From a virus, in IMG/VR virus record IMGVR_UViG_3300042453_005404, positions 124,001 to 188,000 of that record: a stretch of 64,000 nt of DNA; one strand, given 5' to 3'. Made by a program: the position numbers and the translations under genes. Below the pieces are notes generated by a model that was given only the letters and a program-made list of their open reading frames with translations, did no database searches and was not told where the DNA came from. Each line of letters starts with the position of its first letter. Within the stretch, counting starts at the first letter, position 1. Shown piece after piece: positions 9,905-52,017 of the stretch.

Positions 9905-10576
9905 TCAAGTTGTTGAGCCAACGAAAGCATTTATTGTGATAAATGGGTTTTGGTTATCAAGGTAATCAAACACTGACTTAAAGAAGTCTGGGTTATCTAA
10001 ATCATTGAGTTTTAAGTTTATTGATTTAATTATTTTTTTTAGGAAGCTGTTGAACACACGATTGTTGCCACCAATTATGTCATAACCGTTTTGATCTTTT
10101 CTTTTGAGAAGGATAACGGGTTCTGTGGAAGAAGTGTTGCTTGACAAAATACGTTCAACTTTGTCGAGGTATCCATGTTTATCTTTTGATCTAGCGGCAA
10201 AGTGTGGATTAAGGCCAAGATATTTTTTAACAAAGAATTCTTTTTTTATGGAAGACAAGTCATTCCAATGAAGTTTGATTTGTTTGGCTTGTTTACTTTC
10301 CCAAGAAGTGTTGATCCATTCAGATTCTCTTTGTTGTTCGAACTCACGAATTTTTTTGATTGCATCTTCAAGGGATGGATTTTTTAGCAACACATTATTT
10401 GTTAGTTCTTGAACTTGTTGACCTATGTTTGGATCAAATATTATTTCGTGTTGTTTTTCTTGGGAGTACATATCACGAAAAACGTGATCAGGTAAATGAT
10501 TATAAACTTGACGCATTACTTTTTCAAATGCTTTGGTTCTTGATTCTGATATAAATAAAATATTATAAAGTTTCAT
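9905..10576 (-). CDS. Putative packaged protein with ParB-like C-terminal region
   Basis: 223 residues. It opens with MKLYNILFISES, the short N-terminal peptide shared by many genes here. The middle is helical and charged. Near residues 160-180, PVILLKRK, then NGYDIIGGNNRVFNSF, resembles the core of ParB/sulfiredoxin-like domains (a strand, then GG-x-x-R and a helix). If correct it may be a nuclease or a nucleotide-using enzyme, but the match is weak. Single minus-strand gene; a 138-base spacer separates it from the GNAT-like gene upstream. Confidence 0.6.
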   Translation of the reverse strand: MKLYNILFISESRTKAFEKVMRQVYNHLPDHVFRDMYSQEKQHEIIFDPNIGQQVQELTNNVLLKNPSLEDAIKKIREFEQQRESEWINTSWESKQAKQIKLHWNDLSSIKKEFFVKKYLGLNPHFAARSKDKHGYLDKVERILSSNTSSTEPVILLKRKDQNGYDIIGGNNRVFNSFLKKIIKSINLKLNDLDNPDFFKSVFDYLDNQNPFITINAFVGSTT

Positions 10577-10714
10577 TTTTTATGTTATTACTAAGATAAC
10601 TAGCTGTTACAGCAACTTATTTAGACCCCCCGCAACTCGCAAAGACTTTTTTTCTTGGAAGTGTTTGTTTGGGTTTGAAAAATTTTGGGGAGAAAAAAAT
10701 TTCTGGGAAAGTTT

Positions 10715-11353
10715 TTAGTCTTGATCTTTTAGGGCTTGTCTTAGTGCTGCACTTCTTGGTTGTTTATATTTTTCACGTTGTTCCCAGCCATGCAAACGAC
10801 GAGCCCGTAGTTTAATGTTTGAGATGTTACCGCCCCAGAAAGCGGACCCAATGTGTTTTATTTCTGGATGTTTGGTTAATGATTTCCAAACGTTTTTAGC
10901 TAGTGTAGATGTTTCTCCTCCCCAAGCTTGGTTGTTAACAACGATTCCTTTATAGTTGGTTGCGATATATTTGAGAAGGTGTAGGTACATAGCTTTGCCC
11001 AATCCTTCTCCACGAAATCTGCGATCACTACCGGACATATTTATTCCCCAAGCAGTTACTTCGTCTGGTTTGTTGGATATTTGTTTACGTAGTTTATCGA
11101 AATCATTCCAAGCATTTGGAGAAAGCAGATAGTAAGCTTCCCTCCCGTAGAGGACTGCATCGATTTCCTCGTCGCCGGATGGACGGGTTGTGTTGAGACT
11201 ATCTGCGTTCAAACTGGCCACATTACCGAGTTGGGGATGGTTTGCATAAACCCAAACTTGTTTTCTATTTTCACCGAGCGAGGTATCTTCGCTGATGGAA
11301 AACTCGATATCTTCGATTGAGTGTTCTTCAAATAGCAGAGTGTATAGTTTCAT
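10715..11353 (-). CDS. GNAT-like acetyltransferase with packaging-type N-terminus
   Basis: 212 residues. MKLYTLLFEEHS is the shared N-terminal peptide, with LFE-E as a possible cleavage point. Residues about 110-125 (RFRGEGLGKAMYLHLLKYI) match GNAT motif A (R/Q-x-x-G-x-G/A), followed by a strand and a helix with LAKNVWKSL as expected for motif B. Closely related to the next gene upstream on the same strand (11397-12056). Substrate unknown; a host protein target after delivery is a reasonable guess only. Confidence 0.7.
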   Translation of the reverse strand: MKLYTLLFEEHSIEDIEFSISEDTSLGENRKQVWVYANHPQLGNVASLNADSLNTTRPSGDEEIDAVLYGREAYYLLSPNAWNDFDKLRKQISNKPDEVTAWGINMSGSDRRFRGEGLGKAMYLHLLKYIATNYKGIVVNNQAWGGETSTLAKNVWKSLTKHPEIKHIGSAFWGGNISNIKLRARRLHGWEQREKYKQPRSAALRQALKDQD

Positions 11354-11396
11354 GGGGTGTTATGAAGCTAATTAGTTTTGTTTTTCTGGAAAGTTT

Positions 11397-12056
11397 TTAG
11401 TCTTGATCTTTCAGAGCTTGTCTTAGTGCAGCACTTCTTGGTTGTTTATATTTTTGTCGTCGTTCCCAGCCATGCAAACGTTTGGCACGTAGGTTAATAT
11501 TTGAGATACTACCGCCCCAGAAAGCATATCCTACATGTTTTACTTCTGGATGTTTGGTTAAGGACTTCCAAACGTTTTTAGCTAAGATTGAGGTTGCACC
11601 TTCGCCGCCCCAAGCTTGGTTGCTAACAAGAATACCGTTATAGGTATTGGCGAGATATTTGAGAAGGTGGAGGTACATAGCTTTACCCAATCCTTCATCA
11701 CGGAAACGTTGAGAGTTCCAAGAATGTTGGACGCCCCAAAGTGTTACATTGTTTGGTTTGTTAGATATTTGTTTACGTAGTTTATCGAAGTCATTCCAAG
11801 CATTTGGTTCAAGGGTTAAAGCATCGTCGTCATTGTTGAAGTAGTTTGGGTTATAGAGAGCTTGTGTATCATCTACTTCGTGTGGGTGTTTTGTACTGAG
11901 AGGAATAGCGCATACGAATCCCACTTCACCTAGCTCTGGGTGATTGGCTGTAATCCAAACTTGTTTTTGGTTTTCACCGAGCGAGGTATCTTCTTTGGTG
12001 GAGATATCGATATCTTCAACTGAATGTTCTTCAAATATCAGAGCATATAGTTTCAT
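11397..12056 (-). CDS. GNAT-like acetyltransferase, paralogue of 10715-11353
   Basis: 219 residues, MKLYALIFEEHSVED at the start. It aligns over the full length to its neighbour, with RFRDEGLGKAMYLHLLKYL as the acetyl-CoA loop; here the second position of R-x-x-G-x-G is D-E instead of G-E, still compatible. The last 20 residues (PRSAALRQALKDQD) are the same in both, and the DNA just beyond their stop codons is similar too, showing a recent tandem duplication. A 30-base gap separates it from the divergent Nudix gene. Confidence 0.7.
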   Translation of the reverse strand: MKLYALIFEEHSVEDIDISTKEDTSLGENQKQVWITANHPELGEVGFVCAIPLSTKHPHEVDDTQALYNPNYFNNDDDALTLEPNAWNDFDKLRKQISNKPNNVTLWGVQHSWNSQRFRDEGLGKAMYLHLLKYLANTYNGILVSNQAWGGEGATSILAKNVWKSLTKHPEVKHVGYAFWGGSISNINLRAKRLHGWERRQKYKQPRSAALRQALKDQD

Positions 12057-12086: not shown

Positions 12087-12518
12087 ATGAAACTATACCA
12101 TTTGATATACGAACAAACGGACAAACGCAAAGTATCGCTTGCTGTGTTAACGTATCAAGGCAAGGTATTGATTGTAAAGCGTTCTAAAGATTCTTATTCT
12201 CATGCTGGGAAGTGGGGATTTCCCGGTGGAGGCATAGACCGTGGTGAAACGGCTTTAAAAGCCGTTATACGGGAGTGTGAAGAAGAGATAGGGGTAAGAC
12301 CTATAAGAGTTAAAAAGCTGGCACAGAATGAACGTATAACATGGTTTGTTGGCGAGTTGCCATATGATCCGTTGGAGTGTATTGATTTAGATTATAGCGA
12401 GCATGATGAATGGATGTTGGTTGATGAGGTGAGTATGAATGAATATGAGATGGTTGAGGGGATGATGGAGATAATAGTTAAGGTATTGAGTGGAGAAGAA
12501 GAAGATGAAGTTAAGTGA
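12087..12518 (+). CDS. Nudix hydrolase with packaging-type N-terminus
   Basis: 143 residues. The complete Nudix box lies at 48-70: G48, E54, R62-E63, E66-E67 and G69, i.e. G-x5-E-x7-RE-x2-EE-x-G. WGFPGGG precedes it as usual. Nudix enzymes cleave nucleoside diphosphates linked to X (NADH, ADP-ribose, capped RNA, mutagenic nucleotides). The start MKLYHLIYEQ carries the shared peptide, so the enzyme may be carried in the virion; ATG 12087 is chosen over an upstream ATG at 12060 for that reason. A TATACC box stands 7 bases before it. Confidence 0.85.
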   Translation: MKLYHLIYEQTDKRKVSLAVLTYQGKVLIVKRSKDSYSHAGKWGFPGGGIDRGETALKAVIRECEEEIGVRPIRVKKLAQNERITWFVGELPYDPLECIDLDYSEHDEWMLVDEVSMNEYEMVEGMMEIIVKVLSGEEEDEVK

Positions 12519-12957
12519 GATATTGTTTGAGGTTGAGCAGCCACCAAAACCAAAACAAGAGGATATGCAGGATGCTTTGGAGATGGTACGAGAGAGTTAT
12601 CCAGAAGAGATGGAAGATAAAGAGTTAGAAGATTTTGATTTAGAATACCTTGGATTGCTTTCTGTTGCCGATATAGGGCATTATGCGGATTTATCTTCAT
12701 GGATGGAAGAGTTTGATGAAGACGACGTAGAAGGCATGAAAAGTTTTAGGGGCGAGGAGTGGTTTAATCGTATGGAGAATTTTGCTAAGAACGACACTAT
12801 TCCACTGGAGAATTTTGCTAAGAACGACACTATTCCACCGATTATTGTTGTTGAGGGTAAAACTTTTACTGATGTTGGAGATGGCCGAGGCAGAGTAACA
12901 TATGCCAACTGGAAAAATATTCCATTGCATGTATACAAGCTAAAGGTAAAGCAATGA
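12505..12957 (+). CDS. Putative packaged protein with ParB-like end and internal duplication
   Basis: 150 residues from ATG 12505 (MKLSEILFEVEQ, shared peptide), overlapping the Nudix gene by 14 bases. Residues 15-90 are acidic and helical. ENFAKNDTIP occurs twice in a row from a perfect 31-base match repeated every 33 bases (12775-12840). The end, PPIIVVEGKTFTDVGDGRGR and then VTYANWKNIPLHVYKL, has the strand-loop-(D/N)G-x-x-R-helix pattern of ParB-like domains. Overlaps the next start by ATGA. Confidence 0.6.
   Translation: MKLSEILFEVEQPPKPKQEDMQDALEMVRESYPEEMEDKELEDFDLEYLGLLSVADIGHYADLSSWMEEFDEDDVEGMKSFRGEEWFNRMENFAKNDTIPLENFAKNDTIPPIIVVEGKTFTDVGDGRGRVTYANWKNIPLHVYKLKVKQ
12775..12840 (+). 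repeat. 33-base tandem duplication inside a gene
   Basis: Two copies of a 33-base unit (12775-12807 and 12808-12840) starting GAGAATTTTGCTAAGAACGA; the copies differ only in the penultimate codon region (CTG versus CCG). The frame is kept, adding 11 residues to the product. Confidence 0.85.
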
Positions 12958-13964
12958 AGTTGTTTGAGATATTGTTTGAAACAGCGGAAGAGTATTATCA
13001 ATCTAGTTTGAGAACTTCTGGCAGATTAAACAAAGAGTTAGCCGCACAAGATTTTTCTCGTTATAAACGTCGAGGAGTTCAATATGTTGAATATAACCCT
13101 GAGACATTTACCAAAGAAGGTGTATCGGAAACAAGTGATCCAAACGATATTGGTGGTATCGACAAAGTTTCTTCTCCAGCATATTCAAAACAAAAAGTTA
13201 TCATAGATTTAAAAAACAACATTATTCTTATGAGGTCTGGATTACCTGAGCATGATCCTTTAATAACGTTTCAGTTGCGAGAACTTTTAAGTGCGATTCC
13301 AGAACTTGCAACATATCAAGTAAAAAGATTTGTTCCAACCAAAGATCCTTTTGCTTCTGACAAAGAACTTTCATATGGAATGACGGTTCAAGACTTTTTA
13401 AGTGGCAAGCAAGAGAAGTCTGGGAGATACCCTCGTTATAAGAAGGGCGAGGAGTTATATGATGAATTCAAGTTTGAAGTCTTTAAGGATTTAACAGAGT
13501 TTGATTGGTATCATGCAACGAGAAAGTCAAGTTATGAAAAAATTAAGGCTGAAGGATTTTTAAGACCATCGAAAGATTTTGGAGCTGGGCAGCAGCAACG
13601 GCATGGATGGACTCAGTTTAACTTTGACTTACAGAATGCTGTTTATTTAACTCATGACATTGAAAGAGCTAGAGATATAGCGAACGTGTTGGTTGATAGA
13701 TATGAAGAGGATGCAGTTGTTTTAAAAGTTTCTGGTAAGGCATTAAGTGATGTATCCAAGGTTGTGGTTGATGAGGATATATTGAGGGATGAATATACAG
13801 ATGAGATTTATCCCAGAGAAGCACAAGGTATACCAGAATATGTTATTTCAATAACAAGTGAGAAGATAGCAGGGCTGGGTTACAAGTCAAGAATATCTAA
13901 AGAATTTATTGATGTGGCAGAAACAATAAAGTTTGAGAAGCCAGAGGAAGATAATGAGTCATGA
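12954..13964 (+). CDS. Putative ADP-ribosyltransferase-like effector
   Basis: 336 residues starting MKLFEILFETAEE. The C-terminal part has FDWYHATRKSSYEKIKAEGF (about 182-201), then NAVYLTHDIERARDIA and VVLKVSGKAL. This order (Y-H-x-T, helix, E-G, later VYLT and a strand) is what KptA/DarT/PARP-type ADP-ribosyltransferase domains show, where the H and Y bind NAD. A catalytic Glu cannot be fixed by eye. T4 packages the ADP-ribosyltransferase Alt, so a packaged transferase would have precedent. ATGA overlaps on both sides place it in a four-gene plus-strand operon. Confidence 0.6.
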   Translation: MKLFEILFETAEEYYQSSLRTSGRLNKELAAQDFSRYKRRGVQYVEYNPETFTKEGVSETSDPNDIGGIDKVSSPAYSKQKVIIDLKNNIILMRSGLPEHDPLITFQLRELLSAIPELATYQVKRFVPTKDPFASDKELSYGMTVQDFLSGKQEKSGRYPRYKKGEELYDEFKFEVFKDLTEFDWYHATRKSSYEKIKAEGFLRPSKDFGAGQQQRHGWTQFNFDLQNAVYLTHDIERARDIANVLVDRYEEDAVVLKVSGKALSDVSKVVVDEDILRDEYTDEIYPREAQGIPEYVISITSEKIAGLGYKSRISKEFIDVAETIKFEKPEEDNES

Positions 13965-14572
13965 AGTTAAGTGAGATATTGTTTAACGAGGTTGCTGTTC
14001 CTTTTTCTGAGATAGGAAAAAGTGAGATGGCATTAAAGTTAATCAAAAACGATGACATGATTTTGTTCATACTATATCGTCCTTCGGTGTTAACGAAATA
14101 TTTTCAAGATTGGGAATCAACTGATGGATTAACTGTTGGAATGATGAACATTGTTCTTTCTGAGGATAGCAACAAGATTTACGAGGTTAAAGCAGCGGCA
14201 GCGGAACAAGGTTATGGACCAACGTTGTATGACATTGTTATGAGTTATATTTCTCCAAAGTATCTTATGGCAGACCGGAAAGAAGTTTCTGATGCAGCAA
14301 GAAATGTTTGGAGATTTATGTATGACAACCGCAAAGCAGAATATGATATGTTAACAGTTCCAGAAGAAGGTAAATGGAAAACAAGGGATGGGGAAGACAT
14401 ACCTTTTTTAAACCATGCTTATCGTCTTAAGAAAAAGTTATCGATATATTCCACATTGGTTTTAAGGGACAAACAGTTTTTTGCTAACGAGAGTGATAGG
14501 AACAAGCGAGAACAAATGTTAACAACACTGGAAGAAGATGCTTGGACATATTTCAGAGACAGGATGCAATGA
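13961..14572 (+). CDS. Putative packaged GNAT-like protein
   Basis: 203 residues, MKLSEILFNEVAV at the start. EVKAAAAEQGYGPTLYDIVM (about 67-86) fits the acetyl-CoA loop of GNAT folds (Q-x-x-x-G-x-G/P-x-x-L-Y), followed by LMADRKEVSDAARNVWRFM. The same layout occurs in the three tandem paralogues at 15231-17676 (TSDR, then S-x-x-A-x-x-x-W). Last gene of the 12087-14572 operon; it converges on the minus-strand gene two bases away. Confidence 0.55.
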   Translation: MKLSEILFNEVAVPFSEIGKSEMALKLIKNDDMILFILYRPSVLTKYFQDWESTDGLTVGMMNIVLSEDSNKIYEVKAAAAEQGYGPTLYDIVMSYISPKYLMADRKEVSDAARNVWRFMYDNRKAEYDMLTVPEEGKWKTRDGEDIPFLNHAYRLKKKLSIYSTLVLRDKQFFANESDRNKREQMLTTLEEDAWTYFRDRMQ

Positions 14573-14574: not shown

Positions 14575-15234
14575 TTATAATCCCATTATCTCTGCGCCAG
14601 CTTCTGACAGTTCTAGAACGTCACCAGCTTCACCGATTGTACCAACGAAAAGCATTGTGAGTGGTTTTAAGCTCCATTCTTCATGAGTTTTTGCTGCGTC
14701 TGGAACGCAACCTTGAAACTGTTGTTTGATATCTGGGGCTAGTGCAGATGGAGGAAAATTATGACCGAATCCACGTTTTTCAAGTCTTGGTATTTCTTGT
14801 GGATGATTTTTCTTGAGCCACTTTTGCATATTGAACTTGACGCCGTATTTTTTTGGTGGATTTTTTGGACAGTTTGGTAGATTGTCTTTTACTGGTTTTA
14901 TTTCTTTTTCTTTTTTTTCTTTTGTTGCATAGATGTAGTAGTAAGTGTCACCATAATCTCTGATGGCATCTCTTGCATCTTCTATATCTGCAGCAAGAGA
15001 TATTCTTTCGGTAAAGTCATCTTCGATTGTGTTTCCATCTTTATCGATAAATGGTGCTGATGGAACTCTTGGGGTGAACTTAAACGTTTTGCCGAGATAT
15101 CCACGAGATAGATGGAAATGAGCAAAGTGTTGTTGCAGTTCATCTATTGTAGTTTTTTTACCAGTAAGATTTGGTTGCCGAAATCTTAAATCTAATGCAT
15201 TTTCGAATATTATGCTGTATAGTTTCAAGTTCAA
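14575..15234 (-). CDS. Putative packaged protein, unknown catalytic fold
   Basis: 219 residues, MNLKLYSIIFENALD start (shared peptide with IFE-N). The middle region (FAHFHLSRGYLGKTFKFTPR, then ISLAADIEDARDAI and YYYIYATK) faintly resembles ADP-ribosyltransferase-like domains in having H-x-x-x-G, SLA and a later Y-x-Y-A strand. I cannot find a convincing catalytic set. C-terminus ends in a hydrophobic-acidic stretch GEAGDVLELSEAGAEIMGL. Overlaps the upstream gene by 4 bases. Confidence 0.5.
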   Translation of the reverse strand: MNLKLYSIIFENALDLRFRQPNLTGKKTTIDELQQHFAHFHLSRGYLGKTFKFTPRVPSAPFIDKDGNTIEDDFTERISLAADIEDARDAIRDYGDTYYYIYATKEKKEKEIKPVKDNLPNCPKNPPKKYGVKFNMQKWLKKNHPQEIPRLEKRGFGHNFPPSALAPDIKQQFQGCVPDAAKTHEEWSLKPLTMLFVGTIGEAGDVLELSEAGAEIMGL

Positions 15235-16010
15235 CCTTCGATTCCTTTGTATTGAGATCTGTACAGTTTAAAAGCTTGTGATTTTATTTTTTCTTTAAGT
15301 TCTTCTCTGCTGGCTCCGTTGTTTGTGCCTATTGAATTCAGGATTTCGTCACCATGGTCGAGCAATGGTCCAGCTTTAAAGGGACCATGATACAACCAAG
15401 CATTTGCTGTGCCGAGGACAGCATTGACTGGTTCTCCTGACGAAACAGGCAATCTACAATCGTCGCTTTCATCTTCTGGGGTTAATGGCTTTAAAGGTTG
15501 TCCATTTTCGTCTTCATTTTTACCTGTGCGGTTGGGCCATGATCCATCAAACCGAAACCAATATTTTGGGTAACGAGTATTGTGTTGATAATAGTTGTCT
15601 AACTCAACTTTGGTCCAATCGCTGCCATTTTCGATTTTTGCCCAAGCTTTTTTAGCTGAGTTGCTTGTTGAGCTTAGTCTATCGCTTGTGATAGGTTTTT
15701 GGTAATAATCAGAAATCAACGCATACATCACGCTTCCTGCGCCGGGAAACTGTGGACTTCTTACTATGTAATTGGTTTCAACAGCTTTTTTGCAATCATT
15801 TTCATGCACAGTCTTAACACCACAATATGCACACAACCAATCATTAGGGCTACCCATTAATCCGTTCTCAACCCAAGCTTTGAAATTTTCTACATGCAGT
15901 AAAGCGAACCCTTTTTCGGTTTCACCTTGCCAATCAACCATTGCATATTCTGGTGGTTGATAGCTATTGAATTTTTCTTCGAACAAGATCGAATACAGTT
16001 TCATGTTCAA
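15231..16010 (-). CDS. GNAT-like putative packaged protein (triplet member A)
   Basis: 259 residues, MNMKLYSILFEEKFNS start; an internal ATG two codons later also gives the shared peptide. YIVRSPQFPGAGSVMYALIS (about 80-100) looks like the R/Q-x-x-G-x-G/A acetyl-CoA loop, followed by TSDRLSSTSNSAKKAWAKIE as the next conserved helix. The same blocks occur in the next two genes. Cysteines CAYCG upstream of it are not conserved in all three. Substrate unknown. Confidence 0.6.
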   Translation of the reverse strand: MNMKLYSILFEEKFNSYQPPEYAMVDWQGETEKGFALLHVENFKAWVENGLMGSPNDWLCAYCGVKTVHENDCKKAVETNYIVRSPQFPGAGSVMYALISDYYQKPITSDRLSSTSNSAKKAWAKIENGSDWTKVELDNYYQHNTRYPKYWFRFDGSWPNRTGKNEDENGQPLKPLTPEDESDDCRLPVSSGEPVNAVLGTANAWLYHGPFKAGPLLDHGDEILNSIGTNNGASREELKEKIKSQAFKLYRSQYKGIEG

Positions 16011-16861
16011 CCTTCGATTCCTTTATAATATTTGGTAAACAAATTGTTGGATTTGTTTTTGATTTCTTGTTCAAGTTGATACCGTTCTAGTCCAGACTCG
16101 TTTGCTATTGCTATCAAAACTTCTTGGCCATGGGATAACAATTCTTCTGCGTTAAGCGGGCCGTTATAAATCCAAGCGTTTGCTGAACCAAGTTTTTTGT
16201 TGATCAAAGAAGGGATGGAATCTGGCAACACGCAATCGTCTTGTTTGTTGTTGGGTGTTTTTGGTTCTGTTGTAGGAGACACTAACCTGTTTGGCCACAG
16301 TCCTTTGATGTCGAAATATTTTTTGTGTCCAGAATGATGGCCATACGGGCCGCTCGCACCGTAGTTGTCACCGTAGTTGTCTAACTCGACTTTAGTCCAA
16401 TCACTGCTTGATTCAATTTTTGCCCAAGCTTTTTTAGCTGAGTTGCTTGTTGAGCTTTGTCTGTCGCTTGTGATTGGTGCTTTGTAGTAATCGGAAATCA
16501 AGGCATACATGGCAGCTCCTGCGCCGGGAAACTGTGGACTTCTTACCATGTAACTAACTTCTACTGCTCCACCACAATCCCTTGAATGACGTTCATTTGA
16601 TCCAGCATATGCACAAATCCAACTTTCGAAAGGCAGCATTCCTTCAGCAGCCCATTTTCGAAAATGTCCAACATGGAACAAAGCGAACCCTTGTTCTCTG
16701 TCATTCCACCAATCAATCATTGCAAAAGCTGGAGGACGATATTCTTTGACTGTTCCCACGACTGAAATATGTTTGAAAGCACTTTCTGGTGCTTTCATTT
16801 CTTCTGGACTTAACAGTTTGAGTTGTTCTTCTTGTTCAAACAAGATCTTGTAAAGTTTCAT
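16007..16861 (-). CDS. GNAT-like putative packaged protein (triplet member B)
   Basis: 284 residues from ATG 16861 (MKLYKILFEQEEQ); a longer frame from 16897 overlaps the upstream gene and would hide the shared peptide. SYMVRSPQFPGAGAAMYALI and TSDRQSSTSNSAKKAWAKIE match member A almost exactly, while the first 70 and last 100 residues differ more. Four-base overlaps on both sides. It shares the FALFHV and IDWW/DWQ blocks with member A. Confidence 0.6.
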   Translation of the reverse strand: MKLYKILFEQEEQLKLLSPEEMKAPESAFKHISVVGTVKEYRPPAFAMIDWWNDREQGFALFHVGHFRKWAAEGMLPFESWICAYAGSNERHSRDCGGAVEVSYMVRSPQFPGAGAAMYALISDYYKAPITSDRQSSTSNSAKKAWAKIESSSDWTKVELDNYGDNYGASGPYGHHSGHKKYFDIKGLWPNRLVSPTTEPKTPNNKQDDCVLPDSIPSLINKKLGSANAWIYNGPLNAEELLSHGQEVLIAIANESGLERYQLEQEIKNKSNNLFTKYYKGIEG

Positions 16862-17676
16862 CTTGGGGTATCCGATCCTTTGTAGCGTGCGTTCCAAAGT
16901 CTGTCAGCTATATCAATCAAAAGGTTTTTTACATCTGTATTTTCTGGATTATTCATTGGATCTTTGGCTTTTATCATTATGTCTTCTGCTTGTTTAATCA
17001 ATGGTGCAGCTTTTAATGGACCTTTATATCGATATGCATCTGCGGTGCCAACGATTTTAGCCATTTCTTCTGGTTCAGAAATGCTTCCACCTTTTGCTGG
17101 CAATGGGCAGTCATCTATTTCTTGTGGAGTTTTTGGTTCTGTTTCATTTTTGATTCTGCTTATAATGTTACCAAAGAAACCACCACTTTGTTTTCTGCGT
17201 GGTTTAGCTATGCGTTTTGGATATGTGCCTTGAATATCCATATATATTTTGCCTTTATCCGTAGCTGCATAGTTGTCCAAGCCTTCTCCAACTTTTACCC
17301 AATCTGTGCTTTGTTCTATTTTGGACCAAGTTTCTCTTGCTGCAACAGAGCTACTATGATAACGATCACTTGTTAGCGGAGCTCCAAAGTAATCGCTTGT
17401 TAGAGCATAAAGTGTCAAACCTGCTCCTCTCCATTCTTTGTTTCCTAAAGCCATTGAAACTTGCATTGCTTCAAGGCAATCTTTTTCACTTTCTGAACAT
17501 GTGATCATGCTAGCCACAACTTTAGAGCTATCATTTTTATCATTCAAAAATCTTAACAAAGAATCGGTGTGAGCTAAAATCAAAGTTTTATCAAACACAA
17601 ACAAAGCAAACTCTGGTGCTGTGTATGATATAAAGCTTTTTTCTTCTTTTTCGAACAATAACGGATATAGCTTCAT
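16858..17676 (-). CDS. GNAT-like putative packaged protein (triplet member C)
   Basis: 272 residues, MKLYPLLFEKEEKSF start. EWRGAGLTLYALTSDYF (about 83-99) is the best-kept acetyl-CoA-type loop of the triplet (R-G-A-G), followed by TSDRYHSSSVAARETWSKIE. The lower similarity to A and B suggests it is the oldest copy. Coupled to the kinase-like gene upstream by a 4-base overlap. Confidence 0.6.
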   Translation of the reverse strand: MKLYPLLFEKEEKSFISYTAPEFALFVFDKTLILAHTDSLLRFLNDKNDSSKVVASMITCSESEKDCLEAMQVSMALGNKEWRGAGLTLYALTSDYFGAPLTSDRYHSSSVAARETWSKIEQSTDWVKVGEGLDNYAATDKGKIYMDIQGTYPKRIAKPRRKQSGGFFGNIISRIKNETEPKTPQEIDDCPLPAKGGSISEPEEMAKIVGTADAYRYKGPLKAAPLIKQAEDIMIKAKDPMNNPENTDVKNLLIDIADRLWNARYKGSDTPR

Positions 17677-18527
17677 GGTTTCTTCATGGTTTCTTCAATA
17701 AAGTCTGTACTGTTTTTGATTGTTTCAAAACGTTTTATCAACATGGGTTTGATTGTGTTGTTAACCAAACTTTTCCATTCCTCAATTTCGGCATTTTCAA
17801 TTTTAGCATTTTCCTTCATTGTTTTGGCAACTTCTTCTCTAGCAGCGTCAACCGTTTTAATTAAAGAGTCAACACTTTCTACTTCGTTGAATTGATCCAC
17901 AGCTTTTTGTAAGCTATCGAGGCTATAAGTTTGTGCAGCTGGGGATGAACCCTTGCCGGGATACATACTTCTAAGTTCTCCCACTTTGCTGTTAAATTGT
18001 TGATCTGTTTTTCGGGCACCTTGAGCACGAAAAATCAAAGAACCACCGGGATCAATACGTACAACACCGTTATCTGTTGCTAATAGGTTGGAAGTGTTTC
18101 CAATATCCCAGTTTGCCAACAGCATGTCAACAAACATTCCTTGGGTTAAGTTATTTCTTGAGCCCAAAGAACTTCTAGAAAATCGATAACCTTTTACTTT
18201 TTTAGTTGCCAACCCAATTCTTTTTCTTTCTTCGCTTCCAACAACCTGAATATCTTCTGGTATTGATATACCAAACAGCTTGTAAATTTGATATGCCAAA
18301 TATTCAACTCCTATTTGAAGATTAAATTCTTGTTGTTCTAAGTTAGATTCATTCCCCCATCCTCCATATTTCAAGTAATAACTTCCATTCTTGAACTTGC
18401 AAGTTTGTAATGAATGGGATGATGCAGAGCTACAAACCTCTAGGTCTTGTAGCTCTGTTTCGCTAATCCCTTCTAAAATTTGTTGCTTGACAATTGTTTT
18501 TAATGCGTTAAAAAGTTTTGTTCTCAC
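17673..18527 (-). CDS. HipA / actin-fragmin-kinase-like putative protein kinase
   Basis: 284 residues. N-terminus MRTKLFNALKTIVKQQILEG is a longer, amphipathic version of the shared peptide with ILE-G as possible cut site. Residues about 50-80 carry YYLKYGG and a helix with E and AYQIYKLFG (N-lobe Lys and Glu). LLANWDIGNTSNLL (about 133-147) and VVRIDPGGSLIFRA (about 153-166) match the catalytic D-x-x-x-x-N and metal-binding D-x-G of HipA-like and actin-fragmin-type kinases. Likely phosphorylates protein; target unknown. First gene of the 14575-18527 minus-strand operon. Confidence 0.65.
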   Translation of the reverse strand: MRTKLFNALKTIVKQQILEGISETELQDLEVCSSASSHSLQTCKFKNGSYYLKYGGWGNESNLEQQEFNLQIGVEYLAYQIYKLFGISIPEDIQVVGSEERKRIGLATKKVKGYRFSRSSLGSRNNLTQGMFVDMLLANWDIGNTSNLLATDNGVVRIDPGGSLIFRAQGARKTDQQFNSKVGELRSMYPGKGSSPAAQTYSLDSLQKAVDQFNEVESVDSLIKTVDAAREEVAKTMKENAKIENAEIEEWKSLVNNTIKPMLIKRFETIKNSTDFIEETMKKP

Positions 18528-18965: not shown

Positions 18966-19709
18966 ATGAAAAAACATTTAAAGGCAATCATACGTTCTCT
19001 TGTTTTAGAAGCTATGAGAGAGCTAGCTCCCGGTCAAAAACCCAAGATGATCTTTCTTGCCGGTGGTTCTGGAAGCGGTAAATCCACTACCTTAAGAGCT
19101 TTAGACGTTCGAAGCCGTGGATTTCAAGTTATCGACCCCGACGAAGCCTTTGAAGAAGGCTTGCGCCAACATAATCTTGGTTTAGACATTGCAAAAGCTG
19201 AAAAAGAGTTTTTTGATATCAACAACAGATATAAAGCTGCACAAGAAGCTGGTGATAGAAAAGCAATGAAAGAACTGCAACCTGAGTATTATCGGTTGCG
19301 TGCGAATTCTAAACTTCGTGGTCGTTTGTTTATGTCAGCTTTGCATGGAGCGAAAGAAAAAGCGTTAGGTTTGGCACAAGAGCAACATGATTTCATTGTT
19401 GATGGTACAGGTGGCAACTACAACAAAATTGCAACCTTAAAAAAAGAGTATGAAGAACTTGGTTATGTCACCGCAATGATTTTTGTTCATGTTGAGCTAG
19501 ATACCAGTTTGAAACGAAACCGTGAACGTGGGGAAAGTGGTGGCAGAAAATTGCGTCGCAGCACAGTAAAACAAAGCTGGGAAAACGTTCACAAAAACGA
19601 ACAACCTTTTAGAAAACTGTTTGGTGAAAACTTTTTTTACATTGATGCAGAAAACTTGGAGCAATCGTTACGTGAAGTTTCTGGTAAGATTACCAGTTTC
19701 ATGAGGTAG
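18966..19709 (+). CDS. P-loop kinase of zeta-toxin type, putative packaged effector
   Basis: 247 residues. MKKHLKAIIRSLVLEAMREL is a long-form N-terminal peptide. Walker A AGGSGSGKST (32-41), then IDPDEAFEEGL, IVDGTGGNYNK (about 143-153), and RNRERGESGGRKLRRSTV as an arginine-rich lid. This is the layout of zeta-toxin and related AAA_33 kinases, which phosphorylate UDP-GlcNAc or other small molecules or RNA ends. The substrate here is unknown. A toxin carried in the head would be a striking use; a DNA/RNA kinase role is an alternative. Confidence 0.7.
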   Translation: MKKHLKAIIRSLVLEAMRELAPGQKPKMIFLAGGSGSGKSTTLRALDVRSRGFQVIDPDEAFEEGLRQHNLGLDIAKAEKEFFDINNRYKAAQEAGDRKAMKELQPEYYRLRANSKLRGRLFMSALHGAKEKALGLAQEQHDFIVDGTGGNYNKIATLKKEYEELGYVTAMIFVHVELDTSLKRNRERGESGGRKLRRSTVKQSWENVHKNEQPFRKLFGENFFYIDAENLEQSLREVSGKITSFMR

Positions 19710-32377: not shown

Positions 32378-32382
32378 AGAGT

Positions 32383-32862: not shown

Positions 32863-32867
32863 TTAGT

Positions 32868-32947: not shown

Positions 32948-32952
32948 AGAGT

Positions 32953-33034
32953 GCCCTCGACCAGACTTGAACTGGTACGCTCGTAAGAGCGGGAGATTTT
33001 GAGTCTCCTATGTCTGCCATTCCACCACAAGGGC
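32953..33034 (-). tRNA. tRNA-Leu (CAA)
   Basis: Acceptor GCCCTTG/CGAGGGC, anticodon loop CTCAAAA, long variable arm (CGCTCTTACGAGCG). CCA not encoded. The close match to the preceding Leu gene in the D and anticodon arms suggests duplication. Confidence 0.9.
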
Positions 33035-44860: not shown

Positions 44861-46384
44861 ATGAAAAAAAATAGAGCTCATGAGTTTCTCAATTATTTAC
44901 TTGAGACAGCAGCTAGCGATGAATACGAACAAACAGTTTTAGATGCGCTAAAAGCGGCTGGTATTCAAGGCAACATAAAAGCCGTCGCTGGATCGAGTGC
45001 AACCGAACCAGATTCAGATTTCTTTGTACCGGTAGGAAACAAAGGCCCACATATCATGGAAATCAAGATGGATTGGGGAGCTCAACTTGGAGGAGGCTCT
45101 TGGACCATTACTGAAAAAGAGGGTAAGATCAAGTATAAATGGACAGGAAAAATTAAAGCCATTGACATGGAAACCGATGAAGAACTCAGGTCTTCAACAG
45201 CTGCAATGAAAAGTGCGCTAACTAAATGGCTTGGGACAAACGGAGCATTGGCAGCATGGAGAAGACATGTTCAAAAGGTAAGATCTGGAATGAAAATAAC
45301 CGTTATAAAAGACGGTAAAAAATATCAGCTCAGAGAAACAGCCTCGGGACAACGTATAAACCAAGAAGGAAAAGGTTTGTCATGTTCAAAATTTGCTTGG
45401 GAACATGCAAAAAGAGCAGGTCTTTTGCAAAAGTTGCAAATAAACGTTAATTCTTCAGTAAAGTTCATGGAAAAACATTACGAATCCAAAGGTGCTCGTT
45501 ATATTCAACTTGGTGGTCCTAATGGTGGATTTTATCGTTTTGGTGACGATTCAACTGCCGCAAATTTTAAACAATATGTGCCAGATGTTCCTGAGTTTGG
45601 ACGTGGACCTACTTTTGCTCCAATTCCTTTCAAAATAGAAATGCGTGCAACTCGTGCCGGTGCGCAGGGAGAAAAGTGTGCTTTATCAATCCGAGCTCAA
45701 GGTAGACAAAAAATTAAAAAAGAAAGTTTTGAAAAATCCCCATATAGAATGGATGAAGTTGCTAGCATTCGAAAATTGATGACAACATATAATAACAATT
45801 TTTTAAGTGCTCAGGAGACTGCTACACCCACAAGCAGTACATCTAGAACTAGAACCGGTAAACGTAAAAGCTCCCGTGCTGCCAACGAAGCTCTGAACGA
45901 AGAACTTTCTTTGGGTCTTGCAGGAGGTGGTTCTGGCCGTAGAACAGATTTTGACTTAACAGGATTATCCAATATTGACGAGCCAACAATGTCATTTCGA
46001 AACTTGTATGATATGCCAGAAAATATTGCACCAGTTAAACCAGAAGACTTCTTTGAATTAGTAGAATCAAAAAATAATTTCGAGTATGATTTTGGTGGCT
46101 TTAAATCAACTACCGAAAGCCTAACAGACTATGATTATGATTTCGATATCGGTGACGAAGAAGAAGAACGAGATAACTTAATCAGCACACAAGAAGAAGA
46201 TCAGAGAAGCTGGAATATGAGTAACGGCGTTATTGGTATGAGCAACGAAAGGTTCGACGAACTTGTAAACGACGGTTATGAATTTCAAGAAATCACTGAT
46301 GATGAAAATAAAACTGAAGAGCCTAGAGAACTTGTTGCAACTGTCAAAGAATCAAAAGTAAGTCTCAAATCGATTTTGTTTTGA
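44861..46384 (+). CDS. PD-(D/E)xK-like nuclease, putative packaged effector
   Basis: 507 residues from ATG 44861 with AAGG 8 bases upstream. MKKNRAHEFLNYLLETAASD is a long-form shared N-terminus (LLE-T). Residues about 45-75 read ATEPDSDFFVPVGNKGPHIM then EIKMDWGAQLGGGSW: D53, E67 and K69 form the D-x(n)-E-x-K site of restriction-like nucleases. The middle third is basic; the last 120 residues are acidic and disordered and end in VSLKSILF, close to the shared SILF motif. Substrate could be host DNA. A CTATATAT box lies at 44826-44833. Confidence 0.65.
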   Translation: MKKNRAHEFLNYLLETAASDEYEQTVLDALKAAGIQGNIKAVAGSSATEPDSDFFVPVGNKGPHIMEIKMDWGAQLGGGSWTITEKEGKIKYKWTGKIKAIDMETDEELRSSTAAMKSALTKWLGTNGALAAWRRHVQKVRSGMKITVIKDGKKYQLRETASGQRINQEGKGLSCSKFAWEHAKRAGLLQKLQINVNSSVKFMEKHYESKGARYIQLGGPNGGFYRFGDDSTAANFKQYVPDVPEFGRGPTFAPIPFKIEMRATRAGAQGEKCALSIRAQGRQKIKKESFEKSPYRMDEVASIRKLMTTYNNNFLSAQETATPTSSTSRTRTGKRKSSRAANEALNEELSLGLAGGGSGRRTDFDLTGLSNIDEPTMSFRNLYDMPENIAPVKPEDFFELVESKNNFEYDFGGFKSTTESLTDYDYDFDIGDEEEERDNLISTQEEDQRSWNMSNGVIGMSNERFDELVNDGYEFQEITDDENKTEEPRELVATVKESKVSLKSILF

Positions 46385-47303
46385 TAAACTTTTTGAGCTT
46401 TCCAACGGCCAAGTTCTTCATCTTGGCTTCCACATCAATATCTACAACATCCCTTACAACCCCATCACGCTGACAATCTGGAATATAGTGAATATAATCA
46501 CTGTGCTTGCGTCTGTCTGTAAAGTTACCGTTCTCCAATCCCGGCGTAGTGTTAGACAAATGCTGCAAAGGTTTAACTCCAGTATTCTTCCAAGTGTATA
46601 CAGCCAAACCATATGCGTCATCTAGTGATAAGTTAGCGTCGTTAAACGTGTGATGGTGGCTATCCCATACAACAGGAACACCTGTAGCTGTATGCACTTG
46701 CAATAGATCTACAAGGTTGTATGCACTTTCATCGTTCTCAAACGTGAGTCGAGAACGCACGTTATCTGGTAGATTGCGAACAACTTGAATAAGTTGAGCC
46801 AACCGATCAGACTTGCCACCGTGAATATTGATGGCAGCATAAGGTGTAGCGGGTAGATGCATCTTGTCAAATACCCAAGCATGATGCGACAGTTCCTTGA
46901 TGGCATTGTTAACCGTTACAGGATTATCTGAGCTTAGTACAACAAACTGATCGGGATGTGTAGTTACACGAATCCCAGCGTCAGTAAAAGCCTTACCAAG
47001 CTTGGTAAGCAGCAAACTAACTTGCTCGTCATTGTCAATAATATCACGGTTGTATTCTGCAAGAGAAAACAAACCACTAGACATACGAAACAACTTGATG
47101 TTGTTTGCTACAAGTTTTGGAACAAGTTTGATAATCTCATTGATGTTGTTGAGATAAACTTCACGGATTGTAGACTTGGTATACAAACCTTTTTGAAAGC
47201 GACCTAGTTGCAAGGTACGCTCGTTGATAGAGTTTTCGTAGACTACAGAACCATCACGCTTGGTGCGTGGTTCCAACCATTGACAGCAAACACCTAGACT
47301 CAT
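46365..47303 (-). CDS. uvsE: UV damage endonuclease (UvsE/UvdE)
   Basis: 312 residues from ATG 47303, 6 bases after a -10 element; a TTG at 47318 is an alternative. LFRMSSGLFSLAEYN, VTTHPDQFVVLSS, INIHGGKSDR, LTFENDES, VVWDSHHHTFN and HSDYIHY are in the right order for the TIM-barrel UvdE family; these carry the metal-binding His, Glu and Asp. It nicks 5' to UV photoproducts and so repairs phage DNA without host excision repair. It suggests exposure to sunlight. Its end overlaps the end of the nuclease gene on the other strand by 20 bases. Confidence 0.92.
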   Translation of the reverse strand: MSLGVCCQWLEPRTKRDGSVVYENSINERTLQLGRFQKGLYTKSTIREVYLNNINEIIKLVPKLVANNIKLFRMSSGLFSLAEYNRDIIDNDEQVSLLLTKLGKAFTDAGIRVTTHPDQFVVLSSDNPVTVNNAIKELSHHAWVFDKMHLPATPYAAINIHGGKSDRLAQLIQVVRNLPDNVRSRLTFENDESAYNLVDLLQVHTATGVPVVWDSHHHTFNDANLSLDDAYGLAVYTWKNTGVKPLQHLSNTTPGLENGNFTDRRKHSDYIHYIPDCQRDGVVRDVVDIDVEAKMKNLAVGKLKKFIKTKSI

Positions 47304-47309
47304 ACCTTT

Positions 47310-47338
47310 ATCATACAATATGATAAAGATTATCTAAA
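47310..47338 (-). promoter_or_regulatory. Leaderless-type promoter of the UV endonuclease gene
   Basis: Minus strand: -35 TTTAGA (47338-47333), 17-bp spacer, -10 TATGAT (47315-47310), 6 bases (AAAGGT), ATG at 47303. Confidence 0.7.
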
Positions 47339-48042: not shown

Positions 48043-48549
48043 ATGAGATTAACATTAGGACAACTAAAAAGAATCATTAAAGAAGCGATAATAAAAGAAC
48101 AATGTGAAAAAATTGGTGGAACAGAGGTTTTGGTCTTTACGTATGATGGAAAAATTCGTGGAGTGTTTTCCAGCGAGGCCGAAGCTAAGACAGAGGTACA
48201 AAAGGTAAGATCGAGCCTTAAAGGTATAGATATGAAAAAAGGGAAGTTCCACAGGATGATTGTGGACGGCCCACAAAAAAAGATTGAGGACGGCCTGCCA
48301 CAAAATGATTCAAGTTTATGTGACAATGACGGCAAACAGGTTTGGGTTTTATCGGATAATAGTGGAAAAATTCATGGAGTGTTTTCCAGCATAGAGTACG
48401 CTATGAAAGAGGAAAAAGAGAAAGGTATAGAATTGCATATAGACAAATGGTCTGTGAACTACCCGCCACAAAAAAAGATTGATTCAAGTTTAATAAGTGG
48501 CATCGATCCCGACGCTTCCGATACCGCTCCTAGTAGATATAACTGGTGA
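48043..48549 (+). CDS. Duplicated-domain putative packaged protein
   Basis: 168 residues, MRLTLGQLKRIIKEAIIKEQ start, the long form of the shared peptide (IKE-A). Two related units follow: EVLVFTYDGKIRGVFSSEAE (about 28-47) and QVWVLSDNSGKIHGVFSSIE (about 100-119), each ended by a PQKKI block. The repeated GK-I-x-GVFSS is a strand-turn-strand. Function unknown. AAGGAG ribosome site; CTATATAT box at 47993-48000. Confidence 0.6.
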   Translation: MRLTLGQLKRIIKEAIIKEQCEKIGGTEVLVFTYDGKIRGVFSSEAEAKTEVQKVRSSLKGIDMKKGKFHRMIVDGPQKKIEDGLPQNDSSLCDNDGKQVWVLSDNSGKIHGVFSSIEYAMKEEKEKGIELHIDKWSVNYPPQKKIDSSLISGIDPDASDTAPSRYNW

Positions 48550-48721: not shown

Positions 48722-48798
48722 TGGAGCCCATTGTCGGATTTGAACCAACGACATCAACTTTACAAAAGTTGCGCTCTAGCCAACTGAGCTAAACGGGC
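48722..48798 (-). tRNA. tRNA-Thr (TGT)
   Basis: Acceptor GCCCGTT/AATGGGC, D arm GCTC/GAGC, anticodon stem CAACT/AGTTG with loop TTTGTAA. CCA is encoded. Outside the main cluster, 15 kb away. Confidence 0.92.
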
Positions 48799-48888
48799 TT
48801 ATATCACTCAAAGGATTTTCACCTTTATCTTTCCTCTAACAAAGAGGGGCTTTGAAAGTTAAGCTAGAGTGATTATAATATCTATCTA

Positions 48889-49089
48889 CTAACGTTTCTG
48901 AACAAACTCGTAGAGGCTTTCAGCGGTACGCTTGATATCCTCAATCGTTGGGCATGGAAGCATAACTGGCGAACGATTCTCACGTTCTGCGCTAATACGC
49001 TCGATTTCCATTTCTGTGTGCCAACGCTCAAAAAGCATTTCCTTGCTTTCATTTAGCAAGGCATGACGAATCTCATAACCTGTTGACAT
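48889..49089 (-). CDS. Small conserved phage protein
   Basis: 66 residues; GYEIRHALLNESKEMLFERW (about 4-23) and MLPCPTIEDIKRTAESLYEFV. I recognise this two-helix pattern (GY-IR--LL, then PT-EDI---AE-LY-FV) from T4-like and marine phages as a conserved protein without known function. GGAGAAG ribosome site. Confidence 0.65.
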   Translation of the reverse strand: MSTGYEIRHALLNESKEMLFERWHTEMEIERISAERENRSPVMLPCPTIEDIKRTAESLYEFVQKR

Positions 49090-49136
49090 ATAACTTCTCC
49101 TGTGTGTATGTGTGTGAAATCACTCGACTATTCGAG

Positions 49137-49210
49137 TGGTGGACCGTGGCAGAGTCGAACTGCCGAAAACTGGATGCAAACCAGCTATTTTCCCACTAAA
49201 TTAACGGCCC
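49137..49210 (-). tRNA. tRNA-Ala (TGC)
   Basis: Acceptor GGGCCGT/ACGGTCC, anticodon stem CTGG/CCAG with loop TTTGCAT, T arm GGCAG-TTCGACT-CTGCC. CCA is encoded. The D arm is AT-rich (TTAATTTAGTGGGAAAATA). Confidence 0.88.
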
Positions 49211-49680: not shown

Positions 49681-50220
49681 ATGCGTATTACTGTAAAACA
49701 ACTCAAACGTTTAATCAAAGAAGCTTTAAGAGAGTTACCACCAAAAATCGATCCAAGCACATACAAACCTAATAAATCAGAGCCGGTATGTGGATTGCTT
49801 GTGAATGGGGTATCTCGAAGCTCGTACACAACTCTAAAACAAGCAGAAGAAGTGGCAAAAGTTCTAATACAATCTGGTTACGATGTAGAGATTGTTGATT
49901 TTAAAGGACAGGGTACAGCGTCGGGTGGCTGGGAGGATTTTAGTGTTAGAGGAGCTGATGCGTACCTCACGAATCGAAGTGCAGAGGAGATAATGGAGAT
50001 CGTGGACGAGGAGGAGCGCATCGTCGGCCAGCCACGTCGTCGTGTACGAGCCGCCAGCACCCCCGCCCGCCCGCACCCCGACGACCTCGGTCCCTACCCC
50101 GGCGCTGGGCGGTACCGCAGCGCCGGGGAGATCTCCACGGGGTATATACCGGGGTACAACCCGCCGCCGCCGAGAAGGCAGATGGGTGTGAATGAAGGAC
50201 GATATCGCCGCAATAAATAA
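49681..50220 (+). CDS. Putative packaged protein with GC-rich basic tail
   Basis: 179 residues, MRITVKQLKRLIKEALRELP start (IKE-A). The first two thirds are ordinary AT-rich coding, with VCGLLVNGVSRSSYTTLKQA and GYDVEIVDFKG. From about 50000 to 50190 the DNA becomes strongly GC-rich (codons GCC, CGC, CCC, GAC), encoding QPRRRVRAASTPARPHPDD and a Pro/Arg tail. This segment has clearly different composition from the rest of the gene. Confidence 0.6.
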   Translation: MRITVKQLKRLIKEALRELPPKIDPSTYKPNKSEPVCGLLVNGVSRSSYTTLKQAEEVAKVLIQSGYDVEIVDFKGQGTASGGWEDFSVRGADAYLTNRSAEEIMEIVDEEERIVGQPRRRVRAASTPARPHPDDLGPYPGAGRYRSAGEISTGYIPGYNPPPPRRQMGVNEGRYRRNK

Positions 50221-50263: not shown

Positions 50264-50716
50264 ATGCGTATTACTGTAAAACAACTCAAACAACTTATTC
50301 GTGAAACTGTAGAAGATATCGATCCAATGGATTTAGAACGTCAAGCAGGAAATCTTCCATCAACAAAGGAAGATTTGTTTCAACTTTACAGCGATATGTA
50401 CAAAGAGATGTACGGCATTCGTCCACATTGGCTTAGAATGGATGAAGTGTCTGAAGATGAGCTGCGTGCGATGATCGAGCACTTAGAGCAACGTTACGAA
50501 AGAGAAATCGAAGCAAGAAAACGAGAAGCTGAAGAAGAAGAAAAATTCTATAAAAAACTTCGAATAGAACGTGAAAAAGCGGATAAGGAAAGAGCTGAAC
50601 TTGCTGCGATGGGTTATGAGGGCATGGAAGATCTAGAAAACCTCCCAAGCAGAAGTGGTATGGGTAGACGCCTTGCAGAGTCAATCAAAAAAGCTGTTCG
50701 TGATTCACTTAAATAA
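50264..50716 (+). CDS. Putative packaged coiled-coil protein
   Basis: 150 residues, MRITVKQLKQLIRETVEDID start (IRE-T); the first 20 residues and the ribosome region match the previous gene nearly base for base. Residues about 70-115 form a highly charged helix (EQRYEREIEARKREAEEEEK). End is basic (SIKKAVRDSLK). Ribosome site AAGGAG. No enzyme motif. Confidence 0.6.
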   Translation: MRITVKQLKQLIRETVEDIDPMDLERQAGNLPSTKEDLFQLYSDMYKEMYGIRPHWLRMDEVSEDELRAMIEHLEQRYEREIEARKREAEEEEKFYKKLRIEREKADKERAELAAMGYEGMEDLENLPSRSGMGRRLAESIKKAVRDSLK

Positions 50717-50727
50717 ATACCTTAAAA

Positions 50728-51795
50728 ATGAATCTGCACCTTCTTAGACTAATTTTCAAAGAAACCGTAGCTAGTATATTGGCTGAAGGAGGCTGGGATA
50801 CAACAGTCACACAGTCTACAGTCATTCGTCCATCTACAGTTAAACAAGCTCTTGTTGTAGCCAATAAACTTATCGATGGCTTCAATTCTTTTTTGGACGA
50901 AAAAGGAATACCACACGTTAGAATAGGAACACCTCTTGGTAGTTCCGCTTATCACGAAATAGATCCAGAAGACAAAATCTATGGAGATATTGATTTACAA
51001 CTTGTTGTGCCAGAACTTCCAGAACATGAAAAACTAACAATTAGTCAAATTCAAGGATACTGGGGTGATTTAATAAAAGAATATACTACCGAAGCAAATC
51101 TTAATTTTGTTCATGAAGATTCAGAATCTGGGCATCCGATTTTAAAAATCGGAGAAAATAAATGGGTTCAAGTAGACATGATTATTCATCAAGAGTCTGT
51201 AGAGCATTGGGGTAGATATCGTGCAACCCCAGAAAGAGGAGTTAAAGGATTGCTTATGGGCAATATGTTTTCTACTCTTGGTTCTTTGCTTGACATGAGT
51301 ATTCAACATTCGGGTGTTCAATATAAGCTTGGTATAAAGGATAAAACAAGAAAACCTTATTCAACAACACGCAGAGATTTTTCTATGGTAACTGTTACTA
51401 CAGACCCAGAAACTTTTGTTAAAGATATTTTTGATCATGAATATTCAATGATTACTGGCAAAGATCCAAGAAGAGCTAAAATCGATAAACTTCTTTCTCA
51501 ATATCAGGGTGTTAATGTTGACAACATTAAAGTTGAAACTTTAGTTAAGGCTGTAAAAGGTTTGGCTGCAAGCTTTGCTATGAACAATATGTACGGCAAA
51601 GGTTCTCTTGCCAAATACAGTTCACCAGAACAGTTTTTGTCTGAATTTATGCGGGTTTATGAAGGTAAAGCTGAGAAAGATATTAACTCAGCTAAGAGAG
51701 ACAAAGCAACAACTCCAGAAGCTATTGCCAGAGCAGCGAGTGACAGAGAAAAGGTTCGTTCGGGTCTTGAAATGGTTAAACAATTGTTTGGCTGA
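50728..51795 (+). CDS. Nucleotidyltransferase-fold putative packaged protein
   Basis: 355 residues, MNLHLLRLIFKETVASILAEGG start (LAE-G). IGTPLGSSAYHEIDP (67-81) and IYGDIDLQLVVP (84-95) give the G-S-x(n)-D-x-D site of polymerase-beta-type nucleotidyltransferases (D87, D89); VQVDMIIH may provide the third Asp. CCA-adding, OAS- and CD-NTase-like enzymes share this. The product made is unknown. No ATG-coupled partner. Confidence 0.65.
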   Translation: MNLHLLRLIFKETVASILAEGGWDTTVTQSTVIRPSTVKQALVVANKLIDGFNSFLDEKGIPHVRIGTPLGSSAYHEIDPEDKIYGDIDLQLVVPELPEHEKLTISQIQGYWGDLIKEYTTEANLNFVHEDSESGHPILKIGENKWVQVDMIIHQESVEHWGRYRATPERGVKGLLMGNMFSTLGSLLDMSIQHSGVQYKLGIKDKTRKPYSTTRRDFSMVTVTTDPETFVKDIFDHEYSMITGKDPRRAKIDKLLSQYQGVNVDNIKVETLVKAVKGLAASFAMNNMYGKGSLAKYSSPEQFLSEFMRVYEGKAEKDINSAKRDKATTPEAIARAASDREKVRSGLEMVKQLFG

Positions 51796-51810
51796 TCTAT
51801 TTATTGAAAG

Positions 51811-52017
51811 ATACACAGAGAATTTAAAATAGATGAATTAAAGGAATTGATTGTTGAAGCATTTAATGAGCTAATGGAAAAGAAAAAGCTCAAAGGCAAA
51901 CAAAAAAATCTTGATGTTGCACCACCCTTTGATGAACTCAACAAATATGATTTTCAAAAACTTCGTGCAATAAACAAATCTAAGACAAGCAAGAAAAAAC
52001 CAAAAAAAGAAGACTGA
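51811..52017 (+). CDS. Putative packaged small basic protein lacking an ATG start
   Basis: In-frame from TGA 51805-51807 to TGA 52015-52017. It reads IHREFKIDELKELIVEAFNE onward, i.e. the long-form shared peptide (IVE-A), but the codon where ATG is expected is ATA (51811). The rest is Lys-rich (ending KTSKKKPKKED). Either a rare start is used, the gene has been inactivated, or only the internal ATG in the NELMEKK stretch is used, which would delete the peptide. Confidence 0.4.
   Translation: MHREFKIDELKELIVEAFNELMEKKKLKGKQKNLDVAPPFDELNKYDFQKLRAINKSKTSKKKPKKED

Follow-up and report, generated by a model that had tools for sequence, protein, structure and literature searches.

Why would about 25 genes in one stretch of a phage genome, many of whose products are otherwise unrelated, begin with one of two short peptides? 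The stretch, hereafter the window, covers 64,000 nucleotides and corresponds to bases 124001-188000 of the 260,466-base IMG/VR phage record IMGVR_UViG_3300042453_005404. A preliminary description had noticed these N-termini and proposed that they were two classes of capsid-targeting sequence (CTS), by which injected effectors are loaded into the head. The shared peptides were confirmed: the open reading frames named there exist, at the coordinates given below, and their N-termini do form two real classes, class A (MKLYxILFE) and class B (an LKxIIKEA-type helix). We conclude, with a probability of roughly three in four, that both classes are capsid-targeting propeptides of the phage T4 type, greatly expanded in number and present across a whole clade.

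The window holds 15-16 class A or class A-like carriers and 9 class B carriers. About 302 genes, with 73,900 residues in all, were called over the whole record with a simple codon-based caller. Among them, the class A pattern K[LIT][YFSKTNDC]x[ILF][ILM][FY] occurs 24 times, always starting within residues 2-13 and nowhere else (binomial p ~1e-26, a value that is indicative only, as the pattern was drawn from the same proteins and some of the matches are paralogues). A pattern-independent rule, which asks for a hydrophobic N-terminus closed by [ILVFM]xE at residues 8-24, fits 60 of the 302 N-termini versus 6.2% of internal segments, an excess of about 41. This rule misses the carriers of the MKLYPIIYLNE array as well as g170, g189 and g227, and the excess together with the missed genes leads to an estimate of about 50 carriers in the record. 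High-scoring pairs (score of at least 30) between payload families unrelated beyond residue 25 numbered 78 at N-termini, versus 24 internally and 31 at C-termini; clustering by single linkage at score 26 was too loose and was not used. The relatives compared were labelled G001, G002, G003, G005 and G007, and the same N-terminal excess was observed in G001 and G005 under both the pair test and the general rule. A tblastn search of cultured phages with the short peptide gave no match, for which the low-complexity filter may be the cause. Outside the window, at record positions 4325-9095, lie six tandem paralogues of about 260 residues each that start with MKLYP(I/L)IYxNE, a peptide with a longer end (LNE or TNE) than the LFE seen in the window.

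Shared N-termini could also be by-products of recombination or duplication at gene starts, which would leave genes with common 5' ends and ribosome-binding regions and no targeting role, and some carriers are indeed tandem paralogues (g007-g012, g168-g170). However, synonymous codons vary between the copies of a peptide (all six leucine codons occur) and the upstream sequences vary too, so that selection acts at the protein level, on the peptide itself. The peptide is also kept across phages with unrelated payloads, whereas the linker that follows shows no such constraint: in three paralogues at 15231-17676, MKLY..LFE is invariant and the domain is conserved, with a linker that differs in length and sequence. 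We therefore consider a by-product of this kind very improbable. A repeated DNA element as the source of the shared N-termini was ruled out by the same differences in codons and upstream sequence.

The link to the head comes from the genes that lie just past the window. A gp21-like prohead protease elsewhere in the genome was among the checks set in the preliminary description, and an S77 gene was found 1.25 kb beyond the window end (PF03420, E 2.7e-29 at record 189282-189764; phrog_207, E 7.5e-49). The head module comprises the portal (record 187003-188319), this S77 (gp21-family) protease (record 189255-189866), a 174-residue protein (record 190466-190990), a 752-residue scaffold-like protein, listed between the latter and the capsid gene, and the major capsid protein (MCP; record 194053-196005). 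Portal, protease and MCP all belong to T4-type PHROG families. By capsid protein, the closest cultured relatives are Microcystis phage Mel-JY01, Flavobacterium phage immuto and Rhodothermus phage RM378.

The strongest evidence for a head address came from 65 loci that encode relatives of the protease. In these, the protease gene is followed at once by a small gene with a near-invariant start, LK-x-[LIV][IV][KR]EC[LIV]xE[IV]LxEG, in 28 distinct versions from phages that are only ~50% identical in the protease, and this N-terminal helix is the class B peptide. Class B is thus the start of a conserved head-operon protein, which ties it independently to the prohead core, and the identity is a strong hint that the peptide has affinity for the core or scaffold. 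Since a neighbor of the protease gene encodes a protein with a matching label, the ~50 carriers are probably loaded into the head and injected.

This correspondence was quantified in six phage genomes with a scoring profile built solely from the core gene of distant relatives, no accessory protein being included. At a threshold of 10 bits, accessory N-termini were matched in 5 of the 6 genomes, with 39 non-core matches versus 8 among 8,840 internal segments (p ~2e-26). Conversely, contigs retrieved solely by the DNA pattern of an accessory peptide (class B or class A) encoded S77 in 12 of 15 cases, and in 12 of 12 above 110 kb; the core gene with its class B helix was present in each of the seven class B contigs read around the protease. 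Among random contigs of at least 55 kb, S77 was found in 1 of 13 (p 0.0002), a small control in which only 3 contigs exceed 110 kb.

It had also been proposed that the peptides end at (I/L)xE, and this is statistically real, with a minority of peptides misfitting. In class B, similarity extends as far as (I/L)xE, beyond which the sequences are unrelated; [ILVF]xE lies within residues 15-30 in 86% of 77 distinct class B proteins, drawn from many phages, versus 29% of control segments. The Glu stands at residue 22, or at residue 27 where five residues (e.g., KRRGL) are inserted, so that the site shifts yet is kept. Class A peptides end mostly in LFE, IFE or LYE, and a minority do not fit. In T4, cleavage occurs after (I/L)xE, and the propeptide of gp23 is 65 residues long (PMC9026906). 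Candidate sites in the MCP propeptides of the clade (SMLNE^N/S, VLRE^A, IVSE^A and LISE^A) align with FLTE^A of T4. Together, these motifs suggest that the peptides are cut after the Glu.

The two classes replace each other on related payloads. The product of g031 carries class B (MNKLYLKRLILE, then S), whereas its G003 orthologue, with a payload 54% identical, starts with the class A-like NLSELLFE, then S. Likewise, the record itself encodes g269, whose class A-like start MIFLEELLFE, then E, contrasts with the class B-like one of its homologue at 44861-46384, and the protein at 60816-61898 has MEILLQIIEEE here versus the class A-like MAEILFVNE in its G003 orthologue. Because of such exchanges between orthologues, class A and class B look functionally equivalent. 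Relatives bear their own lineage's version of the peptide: the homologue of the kinase at 18966-19709 in the distant phage G005 has the G005 form (MITLRKYIRNLILE, then M). No such peptide precedes the homologous HAD domains of G005 and G007, and the label is therefore separable from the payload.

These observations also bear on whether the helices might be signals for a membrane or for a phage-made compartment and not addresses for the head. Class B reads as a basic amphipathic helix, and it is borne by accessory proteins of many functions, as would suit such signals. However, the same helix starts the product of a gene whose place next to the prohead protease is fixed, the conserved block closes with a protease-type [IL]xE despite the five-residue shift in position, and two classes unlike in sequence substitute for one another. 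A membrane or compartment signal seems improbable to us on these grounds.

Concerning the payloads, the unrelated folds proposed from the sequence stood in part. Profile searches supported a Nudix hydrolase (12087-12518, + strand, E 1.4e-18), a zeta-toxin/AAA_33-type P-loop kinase (18966-19709, +, E 5e-15), an RNase_T/DEDDh 3'-5' exonuclease with its domain from residue 41 (20338-21261, +, E 7e-9; PADLOC 4e-13) and an LRV/HEAT-repeat protein (21265-23061, -, E 6e-16). In the Nudix protein, MutT homology begins ~10 residues in, directly behind the peptide. The GNAT, ADP-ribosyltransferase, HipA-like kinase, PD-(D/E)xK and nucleotidyltransferase readings found no support in the profile and sequence searches run, but may be right. 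A GNAT profile search of the record gave no match. The ADP-ribosyltransferase-like protein at 12954-13964 had no match in Pfam, among PDB sequences or in PADLOC, and no relatives in viral contigs. AlphaFold models of this protein (predicted local distance difference test, pLDDT, 38) and of the 15231-17676 paralogue family were too poor, at pLDDT 38-39, because relatives are lacking, and were discarded. Beyond the window, the record has one protein resembling a metallopeptidase and a weak match to HAD.

These payloads have to be set against the possibility that the peptides do lead to the prohead core, but that the proteins are mainly core or assembly components, or stay trapped in the head. 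Indeed, the clearest carrier is itself a head-operon protein, and two small class B proteins, g227 and g233, are encoded beside head genes and lack an enzyme domain. However, many payloads are enzymes useless for assembly (Nudix hydrolase, kinase, DEDDh nuclease), the payload repertoire turns over between relatives, and the internal proteins and Alt of T4 are injected (PMC9026906, PMC12373910). We regard a mainly structural role as unlikely, and favor injected effectors.

Several points weigh against capsid-targeting propeptides. The carriers are known here from their genes, from which packaging and cleavage are predicted. The class B helices, being amphipathic, could in principle bind membranes. 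The likeness of class A to the T4 peptide is short, and the spacing from Tyr to Glu is 5 here versus 6 in T4. MKLYQIIYTNE has TNE in place of [IL]xE, and several class B peptides offer more than one candidate Glu. G002 and G003 have only a small excess under the general rule, and G003 gave no accessory match to the core-gene profile at 10 bits or above. Finally, an upstream search of structural genes for a late promoter common to them and the carriers gave no usable signal.

If the peptides are capsid-targeting propeptides, the N-terminal helix would dock its protein onto the prohead core (the scaffold together with the small core protein whose gene adjoins that of the protease) during head assembly. 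The gp21-type S77 protease would then cleave after the Glu of (I/L/V)-x-E at the peptide end, and the payload, freed inside the head, would enter the host together with the DNA. The cargo would in effect imitate a core subunit; this mimicry is suggested by class B, which copies the N-terminus of the core protein. For class A, the N-terminus of the scaffold (MSTPLYQEALIEAKKL), which has a short likeness to the T4 CTS (TYQEFIAEA), may be the model. Docking, cleavage, packaging, injection and a role against the host or its defenses are inferred, the mechanism by analogy with T4.

The carriers of the window are as follows, the residue after each peptide being given behind a hyphen and the strand after the coordinates. 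Class A opens the series with MKLYNILFISE-S (9905-10576, -; 223 residues, no confident family), two paralogues with MKLYTLLFE-E (10715-11353, -; 212 residues, a GNAT reading without Pfam support) and MKLYALIFE-E (11397-12056, -; 219 residues), and the Nudix protein with MKLYHLIYE-Q. Next come MKLSEILFE-V (12505-12957, +; 150 residues), MKLFEILFE-T (12954-13964, +; 336 residues, ADP-ribosyltransferase-like by eye only), MKLSEILFNE-V (13961-14572, +; 203 residues, with a G003 homologue 51% identical) and MKLYSIIFE-N (14575-15228, -; TTG start, 217 residues). The three paralogues carry MKLYSILFE-E (15231-16004, -; 257 residues), MKLYKILFE-Q (16007-16861, -) and MKLYPLLFE-K (16858-17676, -). They adjoin the class B peptide MRTKLFNALKTIVKQQILE-G on a 284-residue protein with a GTG start, HipA-like by eye only (17673-18527, -). 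The kinase bears MKKHLKAIIRSLVLE-A, the exonuclease MNSSLKSLKTIIHSVLLE-G and the repeat protein MNQRQILKAIIKQILLTE-A, all of class B, and the class A peptide MKLYNILFE-T lies between the first two (19719-20282, -; 187 residues).

Further on, class A or class A-like peptides were found as MKITLCSILFE-E (27541-28230, -; 229 residues, its G002 and G003 homologues having other N-terminal peptides), MKLQDLLE-A (33778-34614, -; class A-like, 278 residues, HEFTH motif) and MKLKNILFANE-N (34616-35845, -; 409 residues, the first 46 conserved with G001 and G002). The weakly class A-like MKTFKSIFAVTSN (28412-28966, -), without a clear [IL]xE, is a doubtful member. Class B resumes with the class B-like MKKNRAHEFLNYLLE-T on the 507-residue homologue of g269 (44861-46384, +), MRLTLGQLKRIIKE-A (48043-48549, +; 168 residues), MRITVKQLKRLIKE-A (49681-50220, +; 179 residues), MRITVKQLKQLIRE-T (50264-50716, +; 150 residues) and MNLHLLRLIFKETVASILAE-G (50728-51795, +; 355 residues, a nucleotidyltransferase-like motif by eye only). 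The class B-like MEILLQIIEEE helix near the N-terminus of a 360-residue protein (60816-61898, -) completes the set.

Core enzymes, identified by eye, have no shared peptide: the DNA polymerase (23080-26763), the 549-residue terminase large subunit (42378-44027, -) and a GroEL-like chaperonin (57315-59060, -). A UV-damage endonuclease-like protein was also recognized by eye (46365-47318, -). Two paralogous RecA/KaiC-like P-loop ATPases occur in this one phage (8534-9397, +, and 41562-42317, -, of the window), as do thirteen tRNA genes in two clusters (window 31285-33034 and 48722-49210), two of them adjacent tRNA-Thr(TGT) genes. More than 20 small open reading frames belong to an IGK(L/M)Y...VLL...KVLDSNGNIGW family (window 4149-7202, with many further copies at record ~50.8-53.7 kb and 107-131 kb), apparently an independent expansion of one gene family that lacks the targeting peptide.

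On the scale of the clade, we think it reasonably likely that aquatic jumbo phages with T4-like heads load them in a modular way, with two interchangeable addresses, one of which is that of a prohead-core protein, and that dozens of enzymes per virion are injected, the address being readable from sequence and giving a general catalogue of injected effectors. If so, the first 10-25 residues would suffice to predict the head-packaged cargo of uncultured jumbo phages, and many phage genes of unknown function would become candidate injected anti-defense or host-takeover proteins. It took decades to identify type IV restriction enzymes as the targets of the T4 internal proteins; the list of candidates to test would now be much larger. 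The peptides would also be new delivery peptides beyond those of T4 and P1, and would make it possible to test directly if dozens of effectors fit into one head.

The closest parallel is T4, whose internal proteins IPI-III and Alt combine, as here, a short N-terminal peptide, an S77/gp21 protease encoded in the head operon, an (I/L)xE site and unrelated payloads. IPII and IPIII start with MKTYQEFIAEA, and class A of this phage resembles MKTYQEFIAE. In the T4 CTS, targeting depends on residues 4 and 7, and processing on residues 8 and 10 (PMC9026906). This ten-residue sequence packages foreign proteins by itself, and type IV restriction enzymes are inhibited by IPI-III once these have been injected (PMC9026906, PMC12373910). 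The T-even phages together have at least 10 reported internal proteins (PMC12373910). T4 has three internal proteins and Alt, whereas this phage has ~50 carriers, two peptide classes, one of them common to a core protein, and recognizable enzymes among the payloads.

Phages phiKZ and SPN3US also inject many head-packaged proteins, and an S77-like protease cuts these after Glu (PMC5694885, PMC13282480), as predicted here from the genes. Their propeptides are mostly long and do not form one common address, with motifs AxE or SxE. A phiKZ-type inner body does not fit this phage, which has an MCP, a portal and a protease of T4-type families and the motif [ILV]xE. In P1, the N-terminal signal of DarB, a protein that counters restriction, suffices to bring a foreign protein into the head (PMC9024508); unlike here, P1 has one or few cargoes, no separate scaffold and no peptide common to dozens of proteins.

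The principle of head targeting is thus already known from the T4 CTS, P1 DarB and the ejection proteins of phiKZ and SPN3US. In the part of the literature covered, papers on CTS included, no paper was found that names the present peptides or reports such an expansion. What is new is the scale (~50 carriers), the spread over an aquatic jumbo-phage clade, the two interchangeable classes and the address common to a core protein. Among cultured phages, Flavobacterium phage vB_FspM_immuto has a homologous MCP (43% identity) and prohead protease, and its repeated N-terminal peptides include MENFDLKKFLVENKLT.. and MKKSQLRQIIKEAL. In immuto 2-6A, a MENFDLKKFLVENKLTxNSKLL-type peptide starts four proteins, MKKQILSEQFxRMQxLAGIITES starts two and MKKSQLRQIIKEAL-type peptides start others. 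No packaging study of immuto was found in the literature. Its genome, at 160 kb, its ~nine carriers and the wording of its peptides differ from those described here; as this cultured phage has repeated peptides of its own on those proteins, the idea can be tested now.

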